Below are positions 7,771 to 53,904 of a stretch of 64,000 nucleotides of DNA, piece after piece. A program made the translations under genes and the position numbers. The stretch lies in assembly GCF_021646685.1 (NCBI RefSeq), contig NZ_JAKJHW010000003.1:124001-188000 (forward strand). Direction: 5' to 3'. Source of the DNA: Pseudalkalibacillus salsuginis (GTDB taxonomy: Bacteria; Bacillota; Bacilli; Bacillales; Fictibacillaceae). The notes beneath the pieces were generated by a model. That model was given only the letters and a program-made list of their open reading frames with translations, made no database searches and had not been told where the DNA came from. The first letter of the stretch is position 1. Each line of letters opens with the position of its first letter.

Positions 7771-8865
7771 TTGAAAATTACTAAAAAACACACGTATCGG
7801 TCATTTCTTTCTCTATTCGTGTCCAGTATGATCCTGGCTGGCTGCATGGCAGGTGAGGATGGCTCGGACGAAGGGTCTTCAGGAAATAATGACAGCGGCG
7901 ATCTAGAAGATAAAGTTGTTGTGTATTCTCCCCATGGTAAAGATATTTTAAGCGAATTCGAAAAACAATTCGAAGCAGAGTACGACGTAGATATGGAATT
8001 TCTTGATATGGGTTCACAAGAGGTTCTCGATCGTGTCCGCTCTGAGAAGAACAATCCGCAGGCTGATATATGGTGGGGAGCCCCTCAAGTCATGTTTGAT
8101 GAAGCAAAGGCTGAAGATCTTCTGATGGAATATAAACCTACATATGCTGACTCATTAGATGACATGTACCATGATGAAGATTGGGCTTGGACAGGTACTT
8201 CACAGACTCCAGAAGTGATTTTGTACAACAATAAGGAGCTTTCTGAAGAAGAGGCACCGAAAGATTGGGATGACCTTCTCGACCCTGAATGGAAGGATGA
8301 AATCATCATCCGCTACCCACTGGCTTCAGGGACAATGCGTACGATCTATTCAGCTATGATCTACCGTTCCTATAAAGATAGCGAGGATCCTAAAGAAGGG
8401 TATGAGTGGCTTCAAAAACTGGACAAAAACACGAAAGAGTACAGCGCTAATCCTGAAGTCATGTATAACCAGGTGGCAAAGGGAGTCGGTACGATTTCTG
8501 TATGGAACATGCCTGATACAGTCATGCTTGCTGAAGAAAAAGGCTACCCATTCAGTTATGTGATTCCGGAAAGCGGCACCCCGGTCTTGACAGAAGGGAT
8601 AGCTATGGTGAAGGATGCCCCTCACCCAGAGGCAGCGAAAGCCTTTTATGAATTCGTCAATACGAAGGAGGCTGCTAAGCTTTTGGCTGAAAAATACTAC
8701 CGGATTCCGACACGTGATGATATCGGCGATCTTCCGGAATGGATAGAAAACACGGAAATCAAACCGATGGACATCGATTGGAAGGTGTTCCAGGAGAAGG
8801 AAGCAGAATGGATGGAACATTGGGATGAAAATATCAAGAGTACAGATAAGGACAAGAGCGAATAA
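7771..8865 (+). CDS. ABC importer substrate-binding lipoprotein (Fe3+/AfuA-like family)
   Basis: Surface lipoprotein that would capture the substrate. TTG 7771 is chosen as start because GAGGGAGG (7755-7762) lies 8 nt upstream; the longer reading from 7732 overlaps the ROK gene and has no ribosome site. Lipobox LAGC at about residues 21-24. The mature protein (~340 aa) opens with VVVYSPHGKDILSEFEKQF, typical of the SBP_bac_6/8 families that bind iron, thiamine, phosphonates or polyamines. An ADIWWGAP segment and the downstream TEGIAMVKDAPHPEAAKAF support this. The ligand cannot be read from sequence. Confidence 0.88.
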   Translation: MKITKKHTYRSFLSLFVSSMILAGCMAGEDGSDEGSSGNNDSGDLEDKVVVYSPHGKDILSEFEKQFEAEYDVDMEFLDMGSQEVLDRVRSEKNNPQADIWWGAPQVMFDEAKAEDLLMEYKPTYADSLDDMYHDEDWAWTGTSQTPEVILYNNKELSEEEAPKDWDDLLDPEWKDEIIIRYPLASGTMRTIYSAMIYRSYKDSEDPKEGYEWLQKLDKNTKEYSANPEVMYNQVAKGVGTISVWNMPDTVMLAEEKGYPFSYVIPESGTPVLTEGIAMVKDAPHPEAAKAFYEFVNTKEAAKLLAEKYYRIPTRDDIGDLPEWIENTEIKPMDIDWKVFQEKEAEWMEHWDENIKSTDKDKSE

Positions 8866-8912: not shown

Positions 8913-9992
8913 ATGTCAGCAGTAAATTTATCCAACATCACGAAAAAGTTCGGAAATGTCACAGCCGTTAAAGAACTTGATTTGAAAATTGAAGAAGGGG
9001 AGTTCTTTACATTTCTCGGTCCCAGTGGTTGCGGTAAAACAACAACTCTCAGGATGATTGCAGGTTTCTATTATCCTACTGCAGGAAAAGTGAAGTTCAA
9101 TGATCGGGATATGACGACAGTTCCACCTGAGAAGCGGAATACGGGTATGGTTTTTCAAAATTATGCCCTTTTCCCCCATATGACCGTTGCTGAAAATGTT
9201 GCGTTCGGTTTAAAAGTGCGGAAATTGGAGCGCTCGAAAGTCAAAGAAAAAGTAAAAGAAGTTCTGGGAAAAGTACGTTTGGAAAAATTTATCGATCGCC
9301 AAGTCAGTCAATTGAGTGGCGGTCAACAACAACGGGTGGCTTTGGCGAGGGCTTTAGCGATCGAGCCCGATATCCTATTGCTGGATGAGCCTTTGAGTAA
9401 TCTGGATGCTAGATTGAGAGATGAAATGCGGACAGAAATTTTACGGTTGCAAAGGGATTATGGGATTACTACCATCTATGTCACTCATGATCAGGTAGAA
9501 GCATTGTCGATGAGCGACCGAATTGCCGTTTTTAATGAAGGAAGGTGTCAGCAAATCGGTACACCGACCGAGATTTACAATGATCCTGTCAATGACTTTG
9601 TAGCGGAATTCATTGGGGAAACGAATCTTTACAATGTCGCTTATGAGAATAATAGACTCCATTGTGCTGACCTTGGGATGGATATTCAAGTCGAGGAGCC
9701 ATTGGACGAACGACTCAGGAACCAGGAACTGAAAATTTCAATCAGGCCAGAAGCGGTAAAAGTGAGTGATGAAGAGATCACTGGACTGAATGTGTTGAGA
9801 GGGAAAGTAAAAATCGTTCAATTTACGGGTGCTGCAGTCCATACGTTGATTGAATTGTCAAAAGGTGTGCAACTAAAAGTCACTACGTTAAATGAGGGTC
9901 CATTTACATATCTGCAGGAGGGTGTCGAGGTTGTTCTCCAGCTGCCGCCTGAAAAAATCAGAGTAGTCCCATCAATAAGGGAGAGAGCATGA
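8913..9992 (+). CDS. ABC importer ATPase (PotA/FbpC type)
   Basis: 359 residues: Walker A GPSGCGKTT, Q-loop FQNYALFPH, signature LSGGQQQRVALARAL, Walker B ILLLDEPLSNLDA, switch His in VTHDQ, then a C-terminal TOBE_2 domain (about 280-355) typical of PotA/FbpC/MalK-like subunits. ATG 8913 is preferred, 9 nt after AGGAGAG; two TTG codons upstream are less likely. It overlaps the permease gene by 4 bp (ATGA), so stoichiometric coupling is expected. Confidence 0.93.
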   Translation: MSAVNLSNITKKFGNVTAVKELDLKIEEGEFFTFLGPSGCGKTTTLRMIAGFYYPTAGKVKFNDRDMTTVPPEKRNTGMVFQNYALFPHMTVAENVAFGLKVRKLERSKVKEKVKEVLGKVRLEKFIDRQVSQLSGGQQQRVALARALAIEPDILLLDEPLSNLDARLRDEMRTEILRLQRDYGITTIYVTHDQVEALSMSDRIAVFNEGRCQQIGTPTEIYNDPVNDFVAEFIGETNLYNVAYENNRLHCADLGMDIQVEEPLDERLRNQELKISIRPEAVKVSDEEITGLNVLRGKVKIVQFTGAAVHTLIELSKGVQLKVTTLNEGPFTYLQEGVEVVLQLPPEKIRVVPSIRERA

Positions 9993-50037: not shown

Positions 50038-50071
50038 TTGACAAAATAGTATAGTATTGTATCATTATAAT
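50038..50071 (+). promoter_or_regulatory. Promoter before the c-di-GMP riboswitch
   Basis: TTGACA (50038-50043) with TATCAT 16 nt downstream (50060-50065); a TATAAT at 50066-50071 also lies here, but 22 nt from that -35. Transcription would start just before the aptamer. Confidence 0.5.
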
Positions 50072-50088
50072 AGTACTAATAATTGAAA

Positions 50089-50169
50089 AGGGCAAAATCA
50101 GTGAAAGTTGATGACGCAAAGCTACGGGTCTAAGGTACTAGTTTCATGCTATGATCGCCGGGTTGCCAG
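50089..50169 (+). ncRNA. Cyclic di-GMP-I riboswitch (GEMM)
   Basis: Shows the conserved GEMM parts in order: GGGCAAA (50090), a GAAA tetraloop (50103-50106), GACGCAAAGC (50113-50122), ACGGGTCTAA (50124-50133), a variable hairpin, TATGATCGCCGGGTTGCC (50150-50167). It is followed by an intrinsic terminator that sits between aptamer and ribosome site. In known cases ligand binding switches terminator formation; whether this one is an ON or OFF switch cannot be decided by eye. It controls the 1219-aa SLH protein. Confidence 0.92.
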
Positions 50170-50197
50170 TGAAAGTTAATTTTGCTGTTTGCCTTGG

Positions 50198-50228
50198 CTT
50201 TGCATGTCTTTTTCATGCAAAGTTTTTA
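50198..50228 (+). terminator. Riboswitch expression-platform terminator
   Basis: CTTTGCATG (50198-50206) and CATGCAAAG (50214-50222), then TTTTTATTTTT. It lies ~20 bp before the start codon of the SLH gene, so the read-through fraction sets expression. Confidence 0.85.
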
Positions 50229-50244
50229 TTTTTAGGGGGAGAAT

Positions 50245-53200
50245 ATGAAAAAATTATTTAATGGAGTGATGATAGCCATACTTTTGTTAGGTACAGTATT
50301 GGGCTATCCATTTTCAAATGCAAAAGCTGAAGTTGCAGATCAATCATTATTTATTGATTCACAATTAAAAGGGTGGATTTTGGATGATACAAATGGGAAT
50401 ATCTATGCAATCACAGACGCAGGCGAGCTCTTAGTTATATCGAGAACCACATTCGAAATAACAAATACTGTTTCAATAGGAACAGGGTTGAGTGATTTGG
50501 ATTTGAATGGGAACACATTATATGTGGCTATGCAGGATCAGAACAAAGTAGCTAGGGTAAACCTTTCGACTTTTACAGTCGATGACATGATATCTTTGAC
50601 ACAGTCACCTTTCAACATTGAAGTTTTAGATGGCAGCTTATATTATGCCTACGATCAACATAGTGAAGTGCGAATTGTAGATCTAACGACACAAGAAGAA
50701 ACCGCGCTAGATATTGATGAAGATTCGACTTATGACAGGTTTTATAATCCCGATCTAGAATCTAATGAATCAGGAATCTTATATATAGCTGAATCTGGAT
50801 CTTCTGGTTCACATATTTTGAAAGTATCTCTAGATTCAAATTCGATTATATCGGAATCTACTTATGATACAGGTTATGGTTTTCCTTCACCAGAGAGGAA
50901 AGTAATACTAGATGAAAATGAAGCTTTTTATTCAGGGAAAAGTTTAGACAAAGATAATCTAGAAGTAATTAACGGTACATATAAACACGATTATTTTGAA
51001 GAAACAGTATTGGATGTAACTGAACAATTTGTTCTTACTAATAATGCGATTTACGATCGAGATGAATATTACAAGGTTGAATTACTTCCTTTTGAAACAG
51101 AACATATTCTTGCTTCTATGACGGAAGTATATCTCTTTGATACAGACAACATGATCATACATAAAAAGAATTATAATTTACCTACATCTTTAATTGTTCA
51201 ACAATACCCGGTTCAAAATCAGAAGGTAACATTTAATCAAGAGCTTACCGATTGGGTTATAGACCGTACTAATAAGAAAATTTATGCTGTTTCAGAAGAA
51301 AATAACAAAATGCTAACAATCAATGCAGTTACTATGGAAATCGAGAATGAACAATCTGTAGGATCTTTTCCATCGGATATAGATTTAGCAGGAGACAAAC
51401 TTTACATCGCTGACTATGGAAGCACCTACATTACTGTAATTGACTTGAGTACTGGTGCATTATCTAAAATTAAGACAAAGCAAAATCCATATCGCATTGC
51501 CACTGATGGTCAAACCTTATTTTATGTAATGGAAGATCAATGGACAGGTGTCTATAAAATCAATTTAACAGAGGGCACTGAAACAGTGATAGCCGAAGGG
51601 TTGAAAACAAATGATTATAGTTTTTATAAGCCGGATATCGAGTATGATAGTACAAAAAACACACTTTACATTGCTGAATCTGGTTCTTCAGGGTCCCATC
51701 TTTATACTTTGAATCCTGATACCTTGGATATTACAAATGATGGAACAGGGTTTTCATTTCCTGAGAGGAAAATGGTATTAGATGGTGAGCACATCTATTA
51801 CGCACAACGAAAGATATCTGAAGCTGATTTGACAAATGAACTATGGAATTACAACGAAGAAATCCTGAGTGTATCTAATAACTATGTAATTTCTTCAACA
51901 GGGGTTTATTCTAAAACTGATGACTCAAAAGCAGCTTCATTTCCATATGAAGTTTCACATGCTTCCATTAATACTGCTGAGAACGTTTTCTTGTATGTTC
52001 CAGAAAACAAGTCGATTTATAAATTTAATAGTGTACAAGATATCATCAATGGGAAACCTGAGAAATTACAAACAGCTATAAATTCAAACGGTAGTTTCCA
52101 ACTAAGTTGGGATCGTGTGACTGCAGATTATTATCAGGTATCCTATAACACTGGAGACATAGCAGGTGACCAACCTTTAAACTCAAATGAATTGGTAGAT
52201 AATCAACTTATGTTGAGTGAAGAGGAGTACAATCAGTGGGCTGGACAAACAGTGGCGTTCTCGGTTCAATCCATTATTGGAGAATGCACTTCGGAGAAAA
52301 CCATAGCAAGTTATACATTTGCTCCAGAGATGCCACCTAATTTTACAGTAGTACAAAATTCAAACAATGATTTATTGTTCGACTGGGACTTAGTTACAAC
52401 TGATTTTTACAAGTTATTCTATAAAACAAGTACGATGAACGATTTTCTTGCTATTAACGATTCTGAATTGACGGATAATCAATCTACAATTGCAGAAGTT
52501 GATTATCAACAATGGTCTGGCCAGACAGTAACCTTTGGTGTTCAGGCATATGCTGGAGAAAAAAGTTCGGAAATGGCAACATATAATTTAACAATTAAAG
52601 AACCTTCTGTAGAAGAAACACCGGAAGAAGAACCTGTGGCACCAGCTGATGGAGAAACTGGAGATAATTCAGAAACAACGACTGAGGATACTACAACCCC
52701 AGATAAGGGAGAAGGTACGATAGGTAATGGTGGAAACTCCAATGATGATTCAGTTGATGAGCCTTCCAACCTATTTGATTTGGATAATGCTAAAATCGTA
52801 AGGCGAATTACTACGTTCCAAAAACTTTATGAATATAAAGAGGATGTAGAAGACATAGCATTGAACCTTCACGAAAGCCTGATCAATGAAATGAATGAAA
52901 CAGGGGATGAAGGATTTTATATCGAGACACAATTAGGTTCATTCAAGCTCCCGATTAATACGATTGATGCTTATACAGATGATGAAAACTCTTATATCCA
53001 GGTAAGTATCAAAAAAGTAGCTGAAGAGATATCACAGGACCTAGAGGAAATTGCGAAAGATCATTTCTTTGAATTAATCAGCCAACCTATTGATTTTTCA
53101 TTACAGATTGTTGAAAATGGTACATCTACAACCGTAACTTCTTATGGTGATCAATTTGTCGAACGTAGAATTCCGATAAATGACCCATCAGCCCTGGACG

Positions 53201-53904
53201 ATATGATGGTTGTAGTGCTGGATCCTGTAAATAGAACTTACCAATCTGTACCAACAACGATTGAGCAAGATGAGAACGGTCAATATTGGGCGATTTTCCA
53301 TCGTAATGGGAATAGTATCTATGCACTCGTGAAAACACCTGAAAAACCATTTGATGATGTGGTTAACCATTGGGCAAAGGGGGATATTGAAGCCTTAGTT
53401 GCCAAATTGATTATCAAGGGTGTAAATGATAATGAGTTTGAACCAGAAAGGTCAGTAAATCGAGCTGAGTTTGCTGCAATGATTACGCGGGCTTTAGGGC
53501 TTCTTTCCAATAAAGACAGTAATAAAAATGTATTTTCAGATGTAGACAGTTCAAAATGGTATAACGAAGCGGTCTATGCAGCGCGCGATGCAAACTTGAT
53601 CAATGGATATGAAGGGAGAACCTTTAAGCCAGGGGATACGCTTACTCGTGAAGAGATGATTACGATGATAATCCGAGGTCTTGAGTTAGTCAACGGTGAT
53701 CAGGAAGCAGACTTGAAACAATTATCACCGTTCAAAGATGGAAGTAGAGTGGGTGAGTGGGCAAAAGAGAGTGTGGACATTGCAATTGACAAACAGCTCG
53801 TTAACGGAAAAACCACTGAGACCCTTGCACCAAAAGATACGGTAACACGTGCAGAAGCAGCGACAGTGATAAACAGACTGTTATCTAAACTACAATTTAA
53901 TTAA
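50245..53904 (+). CDS. Large SLH-anchored surface protein with two beta-propeller-like halves
   Basis: 1219 residues. Signal peptide 1-29. Two related halves of ~290 residues (about 35-320 and 330-605), each with YncE-like blade repeats ('LDLNGNTLYVAMQDQ', 'IDLAGDKLYIADYGS') and a shared IAESGSSGSH motif, so an internal duplication. Two FN3-like repeats (about 610-790, FQLSWDRVTADYYQVSY and LLFDWDLVTTDFYKLFY), an acidic Thr/Glu linker, a ~170-residue module, then three SLH units (about 1030-1215). No enzyme motif is evident; an adhesin or matrix protein is likely. Under c-di-GMP riboswitch control. Confidence 0.88.
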   Translation: MKKLFNGVMIAILLLGTVLGYPFSNAKAEVADQSLFIDSQLKGWILDDTNGNIYAITDAGELLVISRTTFEITNTVSIGTGLSDLDLNGNTLYVAMQDQNKVARVNLSTFTVDDMISLTQSPFNIEVLDGSLYYAYDQHSEVRIVDLTTQEETALDIDEDSTYDRFYNPDLESNESGILYIAESGSSGSHILKVSLDSNSIISESTYDTGYGFPSPERKVILDENEAFYSGKSLDKDNLEVINGTYKHDYFEETVLDVTEQFVLTNNAIYDRDEYYKVELLPFETEHILASMTEVYLFDTDNMIIHKKNYNLPTSLIVQQYPVQNQKVTFNQELTDWVIDRTNKKIYAVSEENNKMLTINAVTMEIENEQSVGSFPSDIDLAGDKLYIADYGSTYITVIDLSTGALSKIKTKQNPYRIATDGQTLFYVMEDQWTGVYKINLTEGTETVIAEGLKTNDYSFYKPDIEYDSTKNTLYIAESGSSGSHLYTLNPDTLDITNDGTGFSFPERKMVLDGEHIYYAQRKISEADLTNELWNYNEEILSVSNNYVISSTGVYSKTDDSKAASFPYEVSHASINTAENVFLYVPENKSIYKFNSVQDIINGKPEKLQTAINSNGSFQLSWDRVTADYYQVSYNTGDIAGDQPLNSNELVDNQLMLSEEEYNQWAGQTVAFSVQSIIGECTSEKTIASYTFAPEMPPNFTVVQNSNNDLLFDWDLVTTDFYKLFYKTSTMNDFLAINDSELTDNQSTIAEVDYQQWSGQTVTFGVQAYAGEKSSEMATYNLTIKEPSVEETPEEEPVAPADGETGDNSETTTEDTTTPDKGEGTIGNGGNSNDDSVDEPSNLFDLDNAKIVRRITTFQKLYEYKEDVEDIALNLHESLINEMNETGDEGFYIETQLGSFKLPINTIDAYTDDENSYIQVSIKKVAEEISQDLEEIAKDHFFELISQPIDFSLQIVENGTSTTVTSYGDQFVERRIPINDPSALDDMMVVVLDPVNRTYQSVPTTIEQDENGQYWAIFHRNGNSIYALVKTPEKPFDDVVNHWAKGDIEALVAKLIIKGVNDNEFEPERSVNRAEFAAMITRALGLLSNKDSNKNVFSDVDSSKWYNEAVYAARDANLINGYEGRTFKPGDTLTREEMITMIIRGLELVNGDQEADLKQLSPFKDGSRVGEWAKESVDIAIDKQLVNGKTTETLAPKDTVTRAEAATVINRLLSKLQFN

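Follow-up and report, generated by a model that had tools for sequence, protein, structure and literature searches.

Riboswitches responding to cyclic diguanosine monophosphate (c-di-GMP) are reported to act in both directions: in C. difficile, the seven functional switches of class I are OFF and the four of class II ON (PMC6366702), while in Bacillus thuringiensis the class I element Bc2, ahead of the collagen adhesin gene cap/cbpA, is an ON switch (PMC4933901, PMC7423583). The locus described here, found in Pseudalkalibacillus salsuginis within a window of 64,000 nucleotides (the whole stretch of DNA analysed; positions 124,001 to 188,000 of contig NZ_JAKJHW010000003.1), consists of a class I aptamer, an intrinsic terminator, and the gene of a 1219-residue protein with S-layer homology (SLH) domains. 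The C. difficile elements Cd1/flgB and zmpI resemble it in aptamer class and in their association with motility or surface genes, and are OFF by termination, the direction predicted also here; their targets are, however, the flagellar operon and a protease, whereas here the genome is Bacillus-like and the target a propeller-like protein anchored by SLH domains. In Bacillus, Bc2 likewise places a class I aptamer and a terminator before the gene of a wall-bound surface protein, but it is described as ON and its protein as cell-wall-anchored and collagen-binding, whereas the present one is predicted to be OFF and SLH-anchored. An orphan motif named 'SLH' is also reported to be a structured RNA preceding SLH-domain genes, with c-di-GMP put forward by its authors as a candidate ligand (PMC6429828); it is a different motif, described from Synergistaceae, Clostridia, and Negativicutes, whereas the RNA considered here is an ordinary c-di-GMP-I aptamer. 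As to the protein, SlhA of Paenibacillus alvei (1335 residues, three C-terminal SLH domains), reportedly tied to swarming and biofilm formation (PMC3776848), is by description a similarly large C-terminal-SLH surface protein; the abstract of that report names no riboswitch. A literature search, not exhaustive and mostly without subscription papers, returned no report of an SLH gene preceded by a c-di-GMP-I riboswitch; the switch class is known, and the SLH-gene target is the new part. The initial annotation had named clostridia for riboswitch control of surface adhesins and had regarded the coupling to an SLH propeller protein in a Bacillaceae-type genome as an attractive sessile/motile switch; c-di-GMP-I control of a surface adhesin in Bacillus is not new, cap/cbpA being a described case.

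The c-di-GMP-I (GEMM) aptamer, RF01051, lies at positions 50081-50170 of the forward strand, where cmscan matched the model over its full length (1-87/87) with 76.3 bits (gathering threshold 35; E 3.2e-13); one overlapping, lower-scoring match to a clan relative was discarded by the tool. The covariance score identifies the element as a c-di-GMP-I riboswitch, with c-di-GMP as its presumed ligand. It is the sole gathering-level Rfam match in the window, and is thus, as the initial annotation had stated, the only riboswitch found among the SLH genes of the window. The terminator that had been read ahead of the gene was also recovered: a hairpin of 11 pairs at 50196-50224, found both by the terminator search and in the folds, is followed by a T tract extending to approximately 50234, and one such element occurs in the 701-base region against a mean of 0.3 in shuffled sequence. 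Between the end of the aptamer and the start of the terminator there are 25 nucleotides, and no base is common to both. The gene (50245-53904) is on the same strand, its ATG (50245) being placed 75 nucleotides past the aptamer and preceded by a purine-rich, ribosome-binding-like stretch. Upstream, a promoter-like site (TTGACA-16-TATCAT, 50038-50065, forward strand) agrees with the consensus at 11 of 12 positions, and its TTGACA is found in the alignment also in both close relatives; this is a consensus match only, and since nine such sites were found against a shuffle mean of 3.9, promoter evidence alone is weak.

The encoded protein, as had been claimed, carries SLH domains at its C-terminus (three stretches of PF00395, approximately 53350-53886; 126.4 bits against a cut-off of 20.8, E 3.8e-37). 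Starting from the N-terminus, a signal-like segment is followed by two propeller-like repeats, an FN3-like region, an acidic linker, a pre-SLH region, and the three SLH domains; the signal-like segment and the acidic linker were assigned by eye, and the FN3-like region is based on below-cut-off matches in two relatives only. Residues 29-612 (50329-52080) contain, by self-similarity, two repeats spaced approximately 290 residues apart, a repetition that shows up as second matches in relatives. This region gives a weak match of a three-row profile to the 'Surface layer protein' 1l0q (E 1.2e-5, approximately 80 N-terminal residues), which we take to be a YVTN-type propeller, and falls slightly under the cut-off for TIGR02276 (26.0-27.4 bits versus 27.85). 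The propeller of the initial annotation is accordingly retained as a putative assignment of the N-terminal region, made from sequence.

The association of the aptamer with this type of gene recurs: a 78% ortholog has it, as do relatives with SLH domains from two further families and one relative whose frame is broken. The protein has named relatives in Bacillus sp. Marseille-Q3570 (77%) and Rossellomorea aquimaris EaN35-1 (56%). With the N-terminal region as query, ten of 397 genomes of the order, the own genome among them, gave a match of E 1e-10 or lower. An aptamer of 84.2 bits lies upstream of the 78% ortholog (G007, whose leader is the same as that of locus L011); just upstream of two more distant relatives, each with three SLH domains, aptamers of 86.5 bits (G290, 50%) and 78.7 bits (G240, 38%) are present. 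A further one of 82.5 bits precedes the relative in G419, an 82%-complete genome, in which the frame is broken in the assembly and no SLH domain occurs in the available stretch, which stops before the gene need end; this genome came from wider propeller-region searches, as one more aptamer-bearing relative among 20 loci checked, the other 18 of which gave no gathering-level aptamer, although some may stop short of the gene start.

It could be argued that the pairing is accidental, the aptamer and terminator serving mainly as a terminator or as a small RNA while the SLH gene is transcribed from another promoter. The distribution of the gene is indeed patchy: the protein is full length in three of eight genomes of the genus (counting the own), G004 gives an N-terminal match of 31%, and the propeller region is matched in three of 22 genomes of the family of G290 (one being G419) and in one of nine in that of G240. 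Moreover, no aptamer was found upstream of nine relatives (G173, the second copy of G290, G004, G061, G209, G104, G124, G391, and G409), a negative obtained by scoring the best first-look candidates, at most 150, in nine of ten genomes, G391 being judged by coordinates only. Against this, genes of this one protein family have the aptamer immediately upstream in three bacterial families, and here the ATG, with its ribosome-binding-like stretch, follows at close distance, so that an accidental pairing appears very improbable. On a tree built from 13 propeller regions, two changes are needed for the five entries labelled as aptamer-bearing (G000, the own genome; G007; G290; G240; and the decayed G005 discussed below, with G419 and G391 left out), a value as low in 14 of 500 shuffles, to which the kinship of near relatives contributes. 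Two side observations concern these loci: in G240 (L189) two c-di-GMP-I aptamers stand back to back approximately 680 bases apart, at 9229-9314 (+) and 8461-8548 (−), one for the SLH propeller-like gene and the other for a divergent 730-residue protein; in G290 (L187) a c-di-GMP-I-GGC variant aptamer (RF03167, 14341-14434, 66.1 bits), approximately 3.7 kb after the SLH gene, precedes a chemoreceptor-like gene (named by eye).

The leader is probably a c-di-GMP-I transcriptional OFF switch. In outline, with start site, ligand, direction, kinetics, and biological role all as predicted, transcription would start near 50072 and, at low c-di-GMP, the strand 50116-50124 within the aptamer (GCAAAGCTA) would form a helix of 9 pairs with the terminator region's 5' arm (50195-50203) while the polymerase makes the 3' arm; the antiterminator so formed would permit read-through into the gene of the SLH-anchored, propeller-like protein. 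When c-di-GMP is present, the aptamer would fold and block the antiterminator, the terminator would form, and the gene would be shut; the protein would then belong to the surface of the low-c-di-GMP, planktonic or motile, cell. The initial annotation had proposed to check for a competition between the terminator and the P1 stem of the aptamer, which the folds did not bear out: the terminator lies clear of the aptamer and both can form at once, and it is the antiterminator that competes, using aptamer bases. This topology, in which the terminator is compatible with the folded aptamer and the antiterminator draws on aptamer bases, argues that c-di-GMP shuts the gene off and, together with a kinetic reading, makes OFF the most likely direction.

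Folds were run at five RNA lengths per leader, free or with the aptamer enforced, and the gaps given here are the largest or clearest; the aptamer pairs enforced in G419 derive from a fold made in this analysis rather than from cmscan. In the growing free RNA of the window, GCAAAGCUA pairs first with UGGCUUUGC (the 5' arm of the terminator), a pairing seen shortly before the 3' arm is completed, and the terminator replaces it once that arm is complete. A small linker hairpin between aptamer and terminator (50167-50187, sharing the last aptamer bases) appears when the downstream part is folded alone, and hairpins occupy the equivalent position in the leaders of G007 and G290. With the aptamer pairs enforced, the terminator was better paired at one RNA length or another in all five intact leaders: five nucleotides before the stem end the mean pairing of G000 rose from 0.01 to 0.84; three nucleotides before it, G290 rose from 0.01 to 0.88 and G007 from 0.43 to 0.73; three nucleotides after it, G240 rose from 0.48 to 0.97 and G419 from 0.65 to 0.87. 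Removing upstream sequence favours hairpins in general, and a score computed over the family leans towards OFF by construction; for this reason a null of 150 shuffled aptamers was used, counting how often the terminator probability was as low as the real one. This occurred in 8 of 150 for G000 (five nucleotides before the stem end), in 2 and 1 of 150 for G290 (five and three nucleotides before), and in 9 of 150 for G240 (at the stem end), so that three of the five leaders lie above the null for antitermination by aptamer bases (approximately 0.01-0.06); the value for G007 is 0.11, and G419 shows no excess.

A number of results weigh against an OFF switch. For G007, at the length that shows an effect of the aptamer (three nucleotides before the stem end), 17 of 150 shuffles were as low, and five nucleotides before, where the aptamer-bound RNA is also without terminator, 7 of 150 were; G419 does not beat the null at all (30 or more of 150). 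At the remaining lengths the free and enforced states are equal, the late bound value of G007 being even slightly lower (0.95 versus 0.98). With the full stem, the free RNA already forms the terminator in G000 (0.95), G007 (0.98), and G290 (0.96), and at the stem end or later there is no excess over the null for G000 (126/150) or G007 (145/150); the switch must then be kinetic, or else the leader always terminates. The duplex energy between terminator arm and aptamer beats dinucleotide shuffles only modestly in G000, G007, and G290 (14, 36, and 30 of 1000, respectively) and does not do so in G240 (967/1000) or G419 (189/1000), while the length of the helix, a poor statistic, is unremarkable (G000, 387/1000); in G007 an A-C mismatch interrupts the GCAAAGCUA helix (by eye). 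Among the 34 sites of the family with a terminator, 19 are OFF-like, 11 neutral, and 2 ON-like, and in 2 the terminator overlaps the aptamer; the terminator finder, limited to loops of at most 10, reported 35 of 137 leaders, and its misses, G240 included, are not evidence of absence.

The same full-length folds, in which the leaders of G000, G007, and G290 terminate with or without the aptamer, are what would be expected of a binding-competent or near-dead leader, that is, a terminator of fixed level on which c-di-GMP has little effect in the cell; a precedent is Bc1, reported to bind c-di-GMP without regulating (PMC11218506), and in one ortholog the aptamer has decayed. We consider this improbable, since the aptamer is retained at 76-86 bits in four SLH leaders and antitermination by its bases lies above the null in three of five. 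Unlikely, too, is an ON switch similar to that of the B. thuringiensis collagen adhesin, in which c-di-GMP would relieve termination and the SLH protein would be displayed by sessile cells. Such a switch suits the usual logic of adhesins, and the reported proof for Bc2 upstream of cap (PMC4933901), which counts against an OFF reading, places an ON switch within the class. The ON model was nevertheless rejected because no terminator base lies within the aptamer; the aptamer-enforced folds keep the terminator in the four leaders folded (and in all five at late lengths), and, as far as fold prediction goes, no antiterminator favoured by the ligand was seen in them, whereas in a Bc2-type switch the bound aptamer would favour an antiterminator.

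The leader of R. aquimaris (G005/L012) provides a comparison with the intact ones. It can still be aligned, yet its aptamer scores 34.6 bits with ten positions flagged as non-standard, the 3' side of the aptamer and the 3' arm of the terminator are both shortened in the alignment, and no terminator-like hairpin with a T tract appears in its fold; enforcing the aptamer costs approximately 24.5 kcal/mol (−12.8 versus −37.3), compared with approximately 12.7 (−32.4 versus −45.1) for the leader of the window. The gene behind it is still full length (1174 residues). Loss of aptamer and terminator with retention of the gene is what a mostly repressing leader would lead one to expect, and in this single case the decay looks like an escape from regulation. 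It may be added that the ortholog (G005:C1) lies on its contig approximately 67 kb from most other SLH matches of that genome, unlike the situation in G000.

A wider picture can be offered only tentatively, as somewhat less than an even prospect: a giant double-propeller coat protein, anchored by SLH domains and belonging to the free-living state, would be shut off by c-di-GMP, the arrangement would have been kept or regained in three families, and one lineage would have become constitutive by joint loss of aptamer and terminator. If true, this would reverse the usual c-di-GMP adhesin logic. The surface adhesins under c-di-GMP riboswitches described in the cited papers (cap/cbpA of B. thuringiensis and two sortase-dependent proteins of C. 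difficile) are turned ON; with an SLH protein turned OFF, both a target class and a direction would be added. The suggestion that c-di-GMP may be sensed by RNAs preceding SLH genes (PMC6429828) would be touched by this as well. The intact and decayed leaders of close relatives form a natural pair, by which the direction is testable with a reporter.

The suggestion that this gene may be a dedicated effector is weakened by the remainder of the genome. The 4.29-Mb sequence contains five c-di-GMP-I aptamers, four besides that at 50081-50170, and one c-di-GMP-II aptamer, and some of them stand before pilus-like or surface-like genes (by eye); the other class I aptamers presumably stand before a DUF192-like gene followed by a Tad-like pilus operon (L006, approximately 8650-8736, minus strand; names by eye), a small membrane open reading frame (ORF), an acidic secreted protein, and a PilB-like ATPase. 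The sole c-di-GMP-II aptamer (L010, 8823-8906, minus strand) precedes a 158-residue, secreted-looking protein. In line with the proposed switch, the genome has five GGDEF matches that exceed the cut-off (a sixth falls below it), four EAL matches, and two flagellin-N matches. Within the window, nine further proteins among those scanned carry SLH domains, combined with SLT/SH3-type, metallo-beta-lactamase/HHH, Big_5, DUF4901 (two proteins), amidase, subtilase, or NlpC/P60 domains, or occurring alone.

Other targets were surveyed in 34 genomes of the family to which the window belongs, giving 134 sites (one below the gathering score), for 107 of which an ORF of at least 75 residues was picked; the SLH site of G007 is among the 27 sites without a pick, though its SLH gene lies downstream. 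A DUF192-like first gene behind an aptamer is common to nine of the 34 genomes, the own included. In 20 of 34 the first ORF after an aptamer falls into one protein cluster, mostly of 311-335 residues with a GGDEF-like C-terminus by eye (L052, L055, L058, L089-L092, L095, L096, and others), for which a feedback on c-di-GMP synthesis is possible. None of the five c-di-GMP-I aptamers of the own genome precedes a SinR-like gene; an aptamer directly upstream of such a gene is found in 27 of the 34 genomes (L087-L186, L043-L071; names by eye). In the 11 of these 27 leaders that were inspected, a small SinI-like ORF lies between aptamer and SinR-like gene, and in those 11 a GGAGG-type site starts approximately 13-20 nucleotides past the aptamer, which suggests translational control of a SinR antagonist by the c-di-GMP-I aptamer; aptamer control of sinI is reported for B. 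methanolicus (PMC4342826).

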